DNA from: Symmachiella dynata
GTDB taxonomy: Bacteria > Planctomycetota > Planctomycetia > Planctomycetales > Planctomycetaceae
Assembly (NCBI RefSeq): GCF_007747995.1
Contig: NZ_CP036276.1
Span: 3,215,001 to 3,279,000 of the forward strand
Reading direction: 5' to 3'
DNA: 64,000 nucleotides
Made by a program: the position numbers and the translations under genes. Below the pieces are notes generated by a model. The model was not told the origin of the DNA and made no database searches. It saw nothing but the letters and a program-made list of their open reading frames with translations. Positions 10,591 through 17,620 of the stretch are shown piece by piece (positions within the stretch are counted from its first letter, which is position 1; every line of letters starts with the position of its first letter).

Positions 10591-12051
10591 ATGCGTAATA
10601 CACAAGCCACGCAATTGCTGTTCGACCAATCTCATCCGGGACGACGCGGAACCACGTTTCCCGCATCGGATGTTCCTGAACGTGCGCTGGACGAATTGAT
10701 CCCCGCCGCTCAGCGGGCCGAATCGTTACCCGAATTGCCGGAAGTGACCGAGCCGGCAGTGATTCGCCACTATGTGAATCTCTCGACGCTGAACATGTCG
10801 GTCGACACGCATTTTTATCCATTGGGAAGTTGTACGATGAAGTACAACCCCAAGCGGCACGAACGTTTGGCGGCACTGCCCGGGTTGGTCGACTTGCACC
10901 CTTATGCCACAGCAGAGTCGTCGCAAGGCATGTTGCAGATGCTGTTCGAAACCCAGGAAATGTTGGCCGAGATTGCCGGATTGCCAGCCGTCTCGCTGCA
11001 GCCGGCAGCCGGAGCGCAAGGGGAATTGACGGCGCTTTTGGTTGCGGCGGCGTATTTTCGTGATCGCGGTGAAAAACGTACGAAAGTGCTCTTCCCTGAT
11101 AGTGCCCACGGCACGAACCCGGCCAGTGCGAACATCGCCGGTTTCGAATGTGTGCAACTACCCAGCACAGACAATGGGTTTGTGGATCTCGATTTGCTCA
11201 AAGAGCAATTGGACGACCAGACCGCCGTGTTCATGATCACCAATCCCAACACGTTGGGGATGTTTGAACGTGAGATTGGAACCATTGCGGAAATGGTGCA
11301 TGCCGCGGGCGGCTTGGTGTACATCGACGGTGCAAACATGAACGCGATTTTGGGCATCACACGTCCCGGCGATTTTGGGGGCGACATGATGCACTACAAC
11401 GTGCACAAAACCTTCACCGGACCACACGGTGCAGGCGGCCCCGGTTCGGGACCGATTGCTGTTCGCGATTTTCTGGCGGAGTATTTGCCCGGTCCCGTTG
11501 TCGCCAAAAGCGACACTGGAGAATTTCAACTCGAGCAACCGGCCAAATCGATCGGTCGCGTGCGGAGCTTCTTCGGCAATGTCGGCATCTTGCTACGCGG
11601 ATATTGTTACCTACGCACGCTGGGTGCACAGGGACTGCGCGAAGTCTCCGAAAATGCCGTCCTGAATGCGAACTATCTGCTGGCAAAATTGAAGGGCGTC
11701 TTGCCGGTTCCGCAGGGGGATCGTTGCATGCACGAATTCGTCGCCACCGCCAAAACGTTGGCGACGGAAAAAGGAATCACGGCGATGGACATCGCCAAAC
11801 GGTTGCTGGATTACGGCTTCCATGCCCCAACGGTCTACTTTCCGATGGTGGTCCCCGAAGCGGTGATGGTGGAGCCGACGGAAACAGAATCGAAGGAAAC
11901 GCTCGATGCGTTCGCGGCGGCAATCTTGGCAATTTCCGAGGAAGACGCCGACTATGTGCATGCGGCTCCGCACACCACCCCGGTTCGCCGTCCCGACGAC
12001 GTCAAAGCCGCCCGCCAACCCAACCTGAGATGGACGCCCACTTGTGAATGA
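10591..12051 (+). CDS. gcvPB: Glycine dehydrogenase (decarboxylating) subunit 2
   Basis: A 486-aa beta subunit of the split P protein. The PLP-binding lysine lies in 'YNVHKTFTGPHGAGGPGSGP' (Lys near residue 273). Other landmarks are 'HYVNLSTLNMSVDTHFYPLGSCTMKYNP', 'LQPAAGAQGELTALL', 'HGTNPASANIAGF', 'NPNTLGMFE' and 'YIDGANMNAILGI'. It carries the active site of glycine decarboxylation and works with GcvPA and GcvH. The last codons overlap the next gene by 8 bases, implying translational coupling with the lipoyl-transfer enzyme. Confidence 0.97.
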   Translation: MRNTQATQLLFDQSHPGRRGTTFPASDVPERALDELIPAAQRAESLPELPEVTEPAVIRHYVNLSTLNMSVDTHFYPLGSCTMKYNPKRHERLAALPGLVDLHPYATAESSQGMLQMLFETQEMLAEIAGLPAVSLQPAAGAQGELTALLVAAAYFRDRGEKRTKVLFPDSAHGTNPASANIAGFECVQLPSTDNGFVDLDLLKEQLDDQTAVFMITNPNTLGMFEREIGTIAEMVHAAGGLVYIDGANMNAILGITRPGDFGGDMMHYNVHKTFTGPHGAGGPGSGPIAVRDFLAEYLPGPVVAKSDTGEFQLEQPAKSIGRVRSFFGNVGILLRGYCYLRTLGAQGLREVSENAVLNANYLLAKLKGVLPVPQGDRCMHEFVATAKTLATEKGITAMDIAKRLLDYGFHAPTVYFPMVVPEAVMVEPTETESKETLDAFAAAILAISEEDADYVHAAPHTTPVRRPDDVKAARQPNLRWTPTCE

Positions 12052-12796
12052 TCCTGAGGCATCCCCGACAGCCGTTTGCCAAGTGCTCGTAGAAAATGCG
12101 CCACAGACCGGCACGTGGAACATGGCGCTGGATGAGGCGTTGTTGGAGTCGGGGGCAAATGCGGGACAATGTTGGCTGCGTTGGTACCGTTGGTCTGAGC
12201 CGACTGTGTCATTGGGGTACTTCCAAGATCGCGAGATCCCGGACGAGCTCCGCAGTTTGCCGGTCGTGAAGCGTCTCTCCGGGGGTGGCGCGATTTTGCA
12301 TCACCACGAGTGGACTTACTCAGTCGTTGTTCCATCTCGACACCCCAGAGCGCGCAATCCCCCCGAGTTGTACGCGGCGGTCCATGACCGGATCATCGGC
12401 GTATTGGCCGAATTGGGGGTCATGTCTCAAATGCGAGGCTCGACGGCCGCCTTTCGTGACGATTCGTTTCTCTGCTTTCAGCGGGGAGATGCCAATGATG
12501 TGCTGATTGGTGCACATAAAGTCCTGGGCAGCGCGCAGCGTCGACGTCGCGGCGCCGTATTACAGCACGGCAGCCTGCTGATGGCATCCTCACCCCATGC
12601 CGGGGAGTTGCCGGGTCTCCATGATTTGGGTTTACAGCAGTCGTTGGGCGAAGGATTGGTCCAAAAGTTGGCCATTTCGGTCGCCGAGCTATTCGGCGAG
12701 GCACGGTATCTGGACAGTGCCCCAAAAAACACATTGGAGATGGCCGCAGAACTTCAACAAAACCGATACAAAACTGACGGAAGCTTCGCGCAATGA
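12044..12796 (+). CDS. Lipoate-protein ligase/octanoyltransferase family protein (LipM-like)
   Basis: A 250-aa BPL/LplA/LipB superfamily protein starting at a GTG that overlaps the end of gcvPB by 8 bases. Family marks: 'TWNMALDEALLE', 'WYRWSEPTVSLGYFQ', 'VVKRLSGGGAILHHHEWTYSV' and the lysine-containing 'IGAHKVLGSAQRRRRGAVLQHGSLL'. A Cys sits in 'FLCFQRGD' just before the lysine loop, the position of the acyl-carrying Cys in LipM-type octanoyltransferases; LplA ligases lack it. I therefore favour octanoyl (or lipoyl) transfer to GcvH over ATP-dependent ligation. Position directly after the P-protein genes supports a role in lipoylating the glycine cleavage system. Confidence 0.8.
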   Translation: MNDPEASPTAVCQVLVENAPQTGTWNMALDEALLESGANAGQCWLRWYRWSEPTVSLGYFQDREIPDELRSLPVVKRLSGGGAILHHHEWTYSVVVPSRHPRARNPPELYAAVHDRIIGVLAELGVMSQMRGSTAAFRDDSFLCFQRGDANDVLIGAHKVLGSAQRRRRGAVLQHGSLLMASSPHAGELPGLHDLGLQQSLGEGLVQKLAISVAELFGEARYLDSAPKNTLEMAAELQQNRYKTDGSFAQ

Positions 12797-13023
12797 TAAC
12801 TTTTTGCAATTATTTTAGAATTTGGTTGGGTGGCGCGAATTTCTTAGTATTTTCCCGTAATTTCTAGTGTGAGCGATTATTGAAAACGTCGGACGTGTCT
12901 CAAAGTTTTACGTGGTTTTGAGATGTTTTGTTTGACAATTTGTATTGGTACTGGTACTTTGGCGATATACCTGATTTTATTGCATTTCATTTTCGTATTG
13001 TTCGTCACTTCTAGTTGGTTTTA

Positions 13024-13140
13024 CTTAGTAACGCAGTTGAGCGACGTTCGCTCAGCGAACCGTGAACGAGGGTTATCCCCCAGGAGGAAAAGGGGAAGTC
13101 ACCGAGGGCGACAATCGCCCATTTCGCAGTCGTTGCTAAG
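13024..13140 (+). ncRNA. Candidate structured RNA or terminal-repeat element (multibranch foldback)
   Basis: CTTAGTAACG (13024-13033) pairs with CGTTGCTAAG (13131-13140), a 10-bp closing stem with a single G-U wobble. Inside are a perfect 7-bp hairpin (13038-13054), a 5-bp stem GCGAA (13055-13059) with TTCGC (13123-13127), and within that hairpins at 13076-13096 (TCCCC/GGGGA) and 13106-13120 (GGGCGA/TCGCCC). The strand is assumed from the downstream FHA gene, 119 bases away. The remaining gap (12797-13258) is AT-rich on its left side and has no convincing gene; one hydrophobic 85-codon frame lacks a ribosome-binding site. The unit could be a cis-regulatory RNA, a small RNA, or a short mobile element with inverted ends. 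Confidence 0.45.
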
Positions 13141-13258
13141 GGTGCACAAACCTGATATCGGTCGCGTCTTTGTGACGTGAGCCGTCATCGATCTCTTAAG
13201 CGCATCGCCCGATTCCTTTGGCTTTACCAATCAATCTATTGGCGGAGTGATTCCACAC

Positions 13259-14269
13259 ATGCAAGCGGAAATGAAAGTCATTGGCGGTAAGCAACAAGGC
13301 AAAGTGATTCCGTTGACGATGAAGAAGTTTCTCATCGGACGGGAAAAGGATTGCCATTTGCGACCCAACAATGACCTGATCAGTCGGCACCATTGTGTGC
13401 TAACTGTGGACGAATACACGGTGCGAATTCGTGATCTTGGCAGCACGAATGGGACATACGTGAATTCAGAACGGATTCAAGGGCAGGTTGTTCTCAAAGA
13501 CGGCGACAAATTGGCGATCGGGAAACTGTTGTTTGAAGTTTCCGTACGCGATGTCGACGCTCCCGCGGTTAGCAATGAGGACGTGCTGGAAGACGCTGCT
13601 TTGCTGGAAACGGACGCGTTCACTTCTGGTGACACCCCGCCTCCTGCTTCGCGACCCGCAGAAACGCCCGCACAAGACGATAGCGTTTTGGCCCAGGAAA
13701 CAATCACGTTACCGGCCATGAATGAGGACACCGCTTACGAGACGCCCTCAGCCGTTTATGGCGACGATACTGTCTCAATCCCCCCCAGTGGTGGCGGTGG
13801 TGGAAGCGAAAACGCGCCACCCCCAGAGGCGCCCCCTGCCCCGGCCCCGGCCCCGCAGTATCAACAGCCAATGATGATGCCGCAGTATCAACAGCCGATG
13901 ATGCCACAGCAGTATCCGATGCAGTACCCGCAGCAGATGCCAATGATGCCGCAGCAATACGGGCAGCAAATGCCGATGATGCCGCAGCAGTATCCGCCGC
14001 AATATCCGCAACCGGTACAGATGGCGCCACAACAATTTCCGCCACAGGAAACGGCGCCGCCCCCTGCTGCTGAACCGCCAGCCGCGGAAAACCAGCCGAC
14101 ACTTGACGAAATGGACGTGCGGTTGCCTAACCCCGAAGAAACGGGAGCCGTCGAGCCGGCTAGTGCAAAACCCGAGGCAAAACCAGGGGAAGCTTCCACG
14201 GAAATTGACCCTCGGACTGCCGCTGCGGATATTATCCGTCAGTACACGCATCGACCGCTGGGGCAATAA
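13259..14269 (+). CDS. FHA-domain protein with proline/glutamine/methionine-rich tail
   Basis: A 336-aa protein. I chose ATG 13259 because a GGCGGAG ribosome-binding site lies at a usable distance; a GTG at 13247 is in frame but overlaps that site. Residues 5-95 are an FHA domain with the phosphothreonine-binding marks 'FLIGREKDCHLRP', 'ISRHHCVL' and 'DLGSTNGTYVN'. A poly-Gly linker and then a low-complexity P/Q/M/Y-rich segment (about residues 170-285, with repeats such as MPQQYP and MMPQ) follow. It ends in a short charged tail ('RTAAADIIRQYTHRPLG'). It probably binds a phosphorylated partner; a second FHA protein, with a phosphatase domain, lies 1.4 kb downstream on the other strand. Confidence 0.85.
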   Translation: MQAEMKVIGGKQQGKVIPLTMKKFLIGREKDCHLRPNNDLISRHHCVLTVDEYTVRIRDLGSTNGTYVNSERIQGQVVLKDGDKLAIGKLLFEVSVRDVDAPAVSNEDVLEDAALLETDAFTSGDTPPPASRPAETPAQDDSVLAQETITLPAMNEDTAYETPSAVYGDDTVSIPPSGGGGGSENAPPPEAPPAPAPAPQYQQPMMMPQYQQPMMPQQYPMQYPQQMPMMPQQYGQQMPMMPQQYPPQYPQPVQMAPQQFPPQETAPPPAAEPPAAENQPTLDEMDVRLPNPEETGAVEPASAKPEAKPGEASTEIDPRTAAADIIRQYTHRPLGQ

Positions 14270-15682: not shown

Positions 15683-17356
15683 CTACTTGTCGTTACTTAA
15701 GCGACCGAAGCTCATCAGTGTGATGTCGTCGTTCTGCGGACGTCCATTCGCATGCCGCTTCACATCAGCGAGGATCATCTGTCCCAATTCCGCCGGATCA
15801 GCGGGCCCTTGGCAGACAAATTCTCGCAGGTGATCGAGTCCGTAAAGCGTGCTGTCGTGGTCCATCGCCTCGCTCACGCCGTCGGTATAGATCACCACGG
15901 TTTCTCCCGGCGCAATCGTCCGATTGGTGGCTGTGAATTGAAAATCTTCGAGCACACCGATGGGCACGCCGATGGCCTCTTCGGGGAATTCCTCGTAACT
16001 GCCATCAGTCTTGCGAATGATGGGAGACATGTGCCCGGCATTGACGACCTGCATTTTGTTGGTCTTTAAGTCAATGATTGTGAGCACAAACGTGACGAAT
16101 CGCCCTTCGCAGGCGCGGTTACACATGTGATTGTTGATGCGGTTTACGGCATCCACTCCGTCGGAGACAAACTGCATCGTGCTTTGCACCGCGCTGGAGA
16201 GACGCGACATCACCAACGATGCCGGCACGCCCTTGCCTGCGACATCGCCAAATGCCAAACAGATTTTGCGGTCACTGAGGCGAATCACGTCGAAGTAATC
16301 ACCGCCCACTGCTTGAGCCGCCTCGTAAGATGCATAGAACTGATAGCCGGGGATATCGGGCATCTGTTCGGGCAACAACGATTTTTGCACGTTGCGGGCG
16401 ATCGACATTTCGCCGTCTTGCTTTTCCTTCTCCATATGGGAAACCAGCAAACGCGCGTTGTCGTAGGAAAGCGCTGCTTGGCCGGCGACCGCCATCAGCA
16501 ATTCCAGGTCTTCGTTTTTGAATTGGTTGAAAGGGTTTTGCGTATCGATATTGATCACGCCCATCGGCTCACCATCCAACGCCAATAGCGGCACGCACAT
16601 CATTGAGCGAATCGTCAGGTTCGAAATCGATTCACTCGCCTCGAAACGCACATCGGTGGCCGCATCGGCGGAGAGAATCCCCGTCTTTTCGGCGAGAACT
16701 TTGTTCAAAATTGTGCGGCTAATCTTCACCGACTCGTCTTGTTCGTCCAGACGATGTTTGATTGCCTTGGGGATCATGTTGCCGCGGACGGGATCCTTGA
16801 GCATGACCACGCCCCGATCGGCGTGGGGGAAAACCGTGAACAACGTGTCGAGGATCTTCGGCAACAGCGAATCCAAGTCGACCGTGCCTGCCAAACTGCG
16901 GCTGATTTGCAGAATGGCATCCAGCTTGGCTTCGGGGCGTACCTCCAATTGCCCGAACAGACCTTTGGAGGTAATGGTCCCCATGATTGTTCCCGGATCA
17001 TCGTCGTCATCCCCTTCGCCGGTGATGTCCAGGTCGAATGCAGGGACCGGCTCGCCGGTACGTGGGGAGGCTGTGTCCTGGAACCGCAACAGGAGCGGAC
17101 CGAGTTTGATGCGGTCATCGTCGCAAAGGGCAACCGGTTCTAGTACGCGTTTGCCGTTGATGAGCGTACCGTTGCCGCTGCCCAAATCTTCAAGGAAAAA
17201 GGCGTCATCCCGTGGGACGATTCGCGCATGATGTCTCGAGACCATGTTGGAATCGAGTTGGATCGTGCAGTCGGGGTGCCGTCCGAGCGTGCATTCACCG
17301 TCGGACAGTTGATATTCGAGGGCTTCTCCACCCTTGAGCAAAACCAGGGACGCCAT
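15683..17356 (-). CDS. FHA-GAF-SpoIIE/RsbU-type PP2C serine phosphatase
   Basis: A 557-aa signalling protein without membrane segments; ATG 17356 ([15 protein letters not shown]) fits an FHA N-terminus. FHA: residues 1-92, with '[13 protein letters not shown]', 'VSRHHARI' and '[12 protein letters not shown]'. GAF: about 125-295 ('[27 protein letters not shown]', '[22 protein letters not shown]'). PP2C of the SpoIIE type: about 320-550, starting '[23 protein letters not shown]' with the metal ligands in '[10 protein letters not shown]', '[18 protein letters not shown]' and '[12 protein letters not shown]'. Such proteins dephosphorylate anti-sigma-factor antagonists or similar partners in partner-switching. 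The GAF domain may sense a ligand and the FHA domain docks to a phosphothreonine. No antagonist or kinase gene is adjacent. Confidence 0.92.
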
Positions 17357-17620
17357 GGCGGATATGATCGTAATTGAGGAGGGCAAAACAGAAACGATGG
17401 AATCAAAGCCAGCGGGAACGACACAGAACGTAATTTTCTATAGAATTCCCGGCCAAGATCTCGGTTTTTCACGGGCCTCGGCGCAAGTCGCAACTGCCCT
17501 GCACCGAGGCTTCCCGATTCTAAGCTCCGGCGCAGCCGCATGCAACAGGCAGTTGACCGGCCCGTAAAAAGATCGCTGCATGCAAGCGGTTTCCGAATCC
17601 TCTTGAGAAGCAAACCAGCG

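Follow-up and report, generated by a model that had tools for sequence, protein, structure and literature searches.

The DNA analysed here (the window) is a stretch of 64,000 nucleotides of Symmachiella dynata, which lies in a single-contig genome of 7,767,809 bases. The G+C content of the window is 54-57%, and a published report gives 55.3% for S. dynata Mal52 (PMC7716862). Between a lipoate-ligase-like gene and a gene for an FHA-domain protein we examined an element of 117 bases predicted to fold into a multibranch structure. The features of the locus are the following:

12044-12796, + strand: lipoate-ligase-like gene (lplA), 5′ of the element.
12932-12960, + strand: promoter-like site, TTGACA - 17 nt - TACTTT, with a putative transcription start near 12967.
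13005-13011, + strand: TCACTTC, the same in all three genus members; predicted partner GGAGTGA at 13244-13250.
13024-13033, + strand: 5′ arm of the closing stem P1, partner of 13131-13140; 10 of 10 pairs are kept in 3 of 3 sequences.
13036-13056, + strand: hairpin A of the MFE structure, 13036-13044 with 13048-13056, 9 bp and a 3-nt loop.
13076-13096, + strand: hairpin B of the MFE structure, 13076-13080 with 13092-13096, of the CCCCC/GGGG type, with an 11-nt loop.
13103-13126, + strand: hairpin C of the MFE structure, 13106-13111 with 13115-13120, GGGCGA/UCGCCC.
13131-13140, + strand: 3′ arm of P1, partner of 13024-13033.
13141-13148, + strand: GGTGCACA, directly 3′ of P1 and the same in all three genus genomes.
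13244-13250, + strand: GGAGTGA, containing the ribosome-binding site GGAG, the same in all three genus members.
13259-14269, + strand: FHA-domain gene, starting at ATG 13259 (PF00498, E 5.6e-20).

The listed open reading frame of the FHA gene begins at GTG 13247; many homologues begin at the position aligned with ATG 13259, and the distance of this ATG from the GGAG resembles that in several of them, where GGAG stands about 10 nt before the ATG. NCBIfam gave only below-cut-off matches for the FHA protein. Some 1.4 kb downstream of this gene, the - strand encodes another FHA protein (15683-17386), which also has GAF and SpoIIE phosphatase domains. Three genomes of the genus were compared, that of the window and two others, G001 and G002, and each contains the element once. 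The order lplA, element, FHA gene, all on the same strand, is common to the three, so that the position upstream of an FHA gene given by the initial annotation holds throughout the genus members compared. lplA-like sequence was detected by tblastn in 16 of 30 FHA loci, so this gene order predates the genus. An open reading frame running across the element (12923-13180) was considered and rejected: in G002 it has an in-frame stop (seen by eye), and its frame also crosses the promoter-like site.

The element occupies positions 13024 to 13140 of the + strand. Its MFE structure has the form that the initial annotation had described, a closing stem of 10 bp with one wobble around three hairpins. 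P1 pairs 13024-13033 with 13131-13140 through a single U-G (13029 with 13135), hairpin C continues outwards into a 3-bp stem (13103-13105 with 13124-13126), and a weak fourth hairpin is also present. The MFE is -47.0 kcal/mol (z -4.21), and none of 200 dinucleotide shuffles of the + strand was equally stable; for the - strand the corresponding values are -43.3 and z -3.41. There are two U-G pairs, that of P1 and one in hairpin A (13037 with 13055), which can pair on the + strand only. Since they would be A-C mismatches on the - strand, the + strand is favoured as the one that folds. When the whole leaders of the window, G001 and G002 were folded, P1 had a probability of 0.95-0.98.

In a single sequence, a stem like P1 is not rare, and the fold energy is unusual without being unique. 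With the criteria of ten pairs, at most one wobble and a span of 90-130, the + strand of the window contains 22 P1-like stems, P1 itself counted among them, or 17 once nested neighbours are merged. When 1,278 segments of 117 bases were scanned with 30 shuffles each, 8 had a z as low as that of the element or lower, in a comparison in which the ends of the element had been picked to fit it; in 46 of the 1,278 the fold energy was as low. The eight low-z segments lie at seven places (28701, 35151, 3901, 19001 and 18951, 44001, 42851, and 14951). Taken by itself, the single-sequence evidence is therefore suggestive only. What rises above chance is the pairing kept in a diverged relative.

The intergenic region of G001 is 93% identical to that of the window, with 37 differing columns of 464 (3 of them gaps), and that of G002 can be aligned in short blocks only. 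Between the window and G001, 2 of the 117 columns inside the element differ versus 35 of 347 outside it (Fisher p 0.0025, or p 0.004 without the gap columns). This contrast is largely due to the 50 flank bases beside lplA: when these are left out, the comparison is of 2/117 with 19 of 297 flank columns (p 0.08), and against the putative leader alone it is of 2/117 with 13/181 (p 0.05). The low divergence of the element relative to the nearby leader is hence marginal. Both changes inside the element are compatible with the fold: a G to A at 13055 turns the U-G of hairpin A into U-A, and an A to G at 13114 falls within the loop of hairpin C.

In G002, P1 is formed by CTCAGCGACG with CGTCGCTGAG, and 3 of its 10 pairs are altered relative to the window, through changes in five letters, with none broken. 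Two of these are double changes and the third is one-sided (U-G to C-G), so the compensatory changes that the initial annotation had proposed to look for in relatives are present in P1, at the one independent split that three sequences hold. When five changes were placed at random in the stem in a simulation, all ten pairs survived in 5,676 of 2,000,000 trials (0.28%); for P1 alone, the observed score was reached by 54 of 500 shuffles. Furthermore, the G002 slice folded on its own adopts the same P1 with three hairpins (z -4.52; 1 of 200 shuffles equally stable). Its inner hairpins are in other registers than those of the window. Hairpin A cannot be aligned pair by pair, a G002 hairpin lying at about the same place in a different register; hairpin B shows one double change, one one-sided change and one broken pair, and the MFE structure of G002 has a nearby AGGGG/CCCCU hairpin in its place; hairpin C loses 5 of its 6 pairs column by column, a different hairpin being found there. 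When the four-helix structure of the window was applied to the column alignment, 89.7% of cells were paired, a value as high in 1 of 500 shuffles, and its covariation score was matched by 3 of 500, in a test where the structure had been drawn from one of the aligned sequences. Short stretches apart, the interior of the element is poorly conserved between the two lineages, and P1 is kept. The best conserved letters are those of P1 and of the outer flanks, TTTACT and GGTGCACA, conservation extending past P1 on both sides. Further along the leader, a 12-base block at 13198-13209, AAGCGCATCGCC, is the same in the three genus members and has no proposed conserved partner. From these comparisons, a predicted multibranch fold closed by P1 is found at the same place in three genus members, its pairing having been kept through sequence change.

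A covariance model built from P1 and the element sequence was used to search more widely. Among 170 genomes of the family it recovered the three genus members, each with an E of at most 9e-27; three matches outside the genus, at E 0.38-0.99, were treated as noise. Among 392 genomes of the phylum, the window's own included, only the latter passed E 0.01. These searches, run with stricter filters under which weak matches are lost, scored 19 (family) and 8 (phylum) candidates per genome, among the matches listed. No further copy was detected in the genome of the window beyond its single match at E up to 10, nor in the other two genus genomes at E up to 1, with one match each. A pattern search of the same 170 genomes with one mismatch found the three genus members only. 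Candidate relatives at three mismatches were discarded, as 16 of 167 non-genus genomes matched but the reversed control matched 49 of 170. The core pattern occurred in one record among the GTDB contigs, a MAG contig taken to be the same genome as G002, and was not found in viral contigs. Rfam gave no match at gathering score anywhere in the window, and within 12750-13300 its best weak match had E 2.7 and was not a riboswitch; this agrees with the initial annotation, which could match the architecture to no known class. The structured leader is probably real but very lineage-restricted, being confined to the genus in these searches.

Upstream of the element, the promoter-like site is kept in G001 and reads TTGACA-17-TAATTT in G002, with equal spacing. 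Its -10 matches the consensus at 3 of 6 positions, and the site is missing from the list of a promoter scanner. A loose, putatively promoter-like pattern of this kind lies upstream in 22 of 30 FHA loci, the three of the genus included; the other 8 were dropped because the site was absent or the leader short. TTGACA-17-TAGCGT or a similar sequence stands upstream of the FHA start codon in several other genera (loci L011-L036). The leaders predicted from these sites measure 184-354 nt across the 22 loci: 291-296 nt in the genus, 184-213 nt in 14 of the 19 loci of other genera and 239-354 nt in the remaining 5. Together these observations suggest that a promoter and a long leader of the FHA gene are conserved across genera. 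A search of 12780-13300 for terminator-like sites gave none. From the upstream promoter-like site and this result we infer a place for the element within the leader of the FHA mRNA, and the arrangement suggests that it is co-transcribed with the gene. A structured leader common to the whole family was also considered, and was set aside because fold energies among the 22 folded loci were mixed (z -3.3 to +1.6); in the same 22 loci, no consistent long-range pairing of the ribosome site was found.

Within the genus, a second helix, P0, is predicted between 13005-13011 and the ribosome-site segment 13244-13250, which are complementary with one U-G. P0 is present in the MFE structures of all three leaders folded up to the ATG, with a mean probability of 0.83-0.89. 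Extending the folded sequence into the coding region by 60 and 120 nt gave probabilities of 0.83 and 0.83 for the window, 0.58 and 0.71 for G001, and 0.36 and 0.67 for G002. Of 200 shuffles each, 1 for the window leader and 35 for the G002 leader had long-range pairing of the site at least as strong, and the ribosome site was as closed in 8 and 41 of 200, respectively. A wider site region (-15 to -5) did not differ from shuffles in being less open (13, 20 and 6 of 30 lay at or below the observed value), and 1, 6 and 12 of 30 equalled or exceeded its long-range pairing, for the window, G001 and G002. There is no covariation in P0 across the three genus members. Holding the 5′ arm of P1 single-stranded lowered P0 in the window and in G001, and not in G002. 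The conserved 5′ segment and its predicted pairing with the ribosome site make translational control through P0 the leading guess at a mechanism; the evidence points to it weakly, and we hold it tentatively. Given the shuffles of P0, the uneven coupling between P1 and P0 and the inconsistent picture in other genera, occlusion of the ribosome site is best described as a lead with partial support.

Our best reading, to which we give an even chance, is that the element belongs to a genus-specific structured 5′ leader of the FHA gene. It would then be a structured domain in an untranslated leader of about 290 nt, with transcription of the + strand driven by a promoter near 12932-12960. Segment 13005-13011 would pair with the ribosome-binding site at 13244-13250 and so close P0, a long-range helix, around the multibranch domain, so that translation of the FHA gene would be set by whether P0 is open. 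The bolder form of this model, in which the P1 domain and P0 make up a new genus-specific RNA switch controlling the FHA protein in response to some signal, we consider rather unlikely; an ordinary lineage-specific leader is the likely outcome.

Several other readings of the same data have to be weighed. A structured leader may serve another role, in mRNA stability, in processing or as a protein-binding site, without occluding the ribosome site. This overlaps with our best reading and is a possible, if minority, alternative: the strongest conservation, in P1 and the outer flanks TTTACT and GGTGCACA, is of the kind expected of a binding or processing site, and coupling between P1 and P0 is inconsistent, but the identity of TCACTTC and of its ribosome-site partner in three genus members counts against it. 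The element may also be a chance fold with no function, considering the 22 similar stems, the 8 segments with as low a z, the single independent split with 54 of 500 shuffles reaching the score of P1, and a divergence only marginally below that of the near flanks. We regard this as unlikely in view of the double changes, which kept a pairing that few random trials keep. The element could instead be a small RNA transcribed independently from a promoter of its own, as its compact, stable fold and the promoter-like site about 65 nt upstream would allow. This too seems improbable, since 12780-13300 yielded no terminator-like site, a gene follows on the same strand, and many loci of other genera have the promoter-like site well upstream of that gene.

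The interpretation given by the initial annotation is supported in part. Its structured RNA is backed by the compensatory changes in P1 (one split), and its riboswitch is not supported, the interior being poorly conserved and clues to a ligand lacking. Riboswitch classes retain a ligand-binding core of conserved letters, and no such core is seen between the two lineages; the fold is moreover found in one genus only, and the adjacent genes point to no ligand. Even with a multibranch fold and closing stem in a long leader, and with Rfam families that do not match, as an undescribed class would have it, a metabolite-sensing riboswitch is therefore very improbable. Hardly more credible is its main alternative, a MITE, here in the form of a relic inserted in the ancestor of the genus. 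P1 would be its inverted terminal repeat, and template-switch correction of a quasi-palindrome, not selection, would have kept the two arms paired. Inverted ends around a diverged interior would be accounted for, as would the shorter leaders of 14 loci in other genera, which fall short of those of the genus by close to the size of the element; against this, leaders of 239-354 nt are predicted in the remaining 5 of the 19 loci. The copy search gave one match per genome, in a position common to the three genus members, no target-site duplication was seen (the flanks are TTTTA before and GGTGC after), and conserved letters go on beyond the repeat on both sides, all of which disfavours a mobile element.

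The structured 5′ leader that we prefer lies in a cultured type strain and is therefore directly testable, and it illustrates, on a modest scale, how a leader can retain the pairing of its closing stem as the interior changes. Among the literature matches listed, judged by their titles, none concerned RNAs of Planctomycetota, and none, by titles and the starts of abstracts, concerned the element. Compared with known systems, it shares with MITEs an inverted terminal repeat around some 100 bp, but is single-copy, stands at the same place in three genomes and shows no target-site duplication. With riboswitch aptamers it shares a closing stem and a multi-way junction upstream of a gene, and it differs from them in lacking a ligand core conserved between the two lineages and any ligand clue. 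A third group consists of leaders in which structure blocks the ribosome-binding site, such as those of ribosomal-protein genes and RNA thermometers; although the element has no known regulator or trigger, no Rfam match and a distribution of one genus, it resembles them in its long leader, as inferred here, in its stable multibranch fold and in having a ribosome site that is predicted to pair with sequence further upstream.
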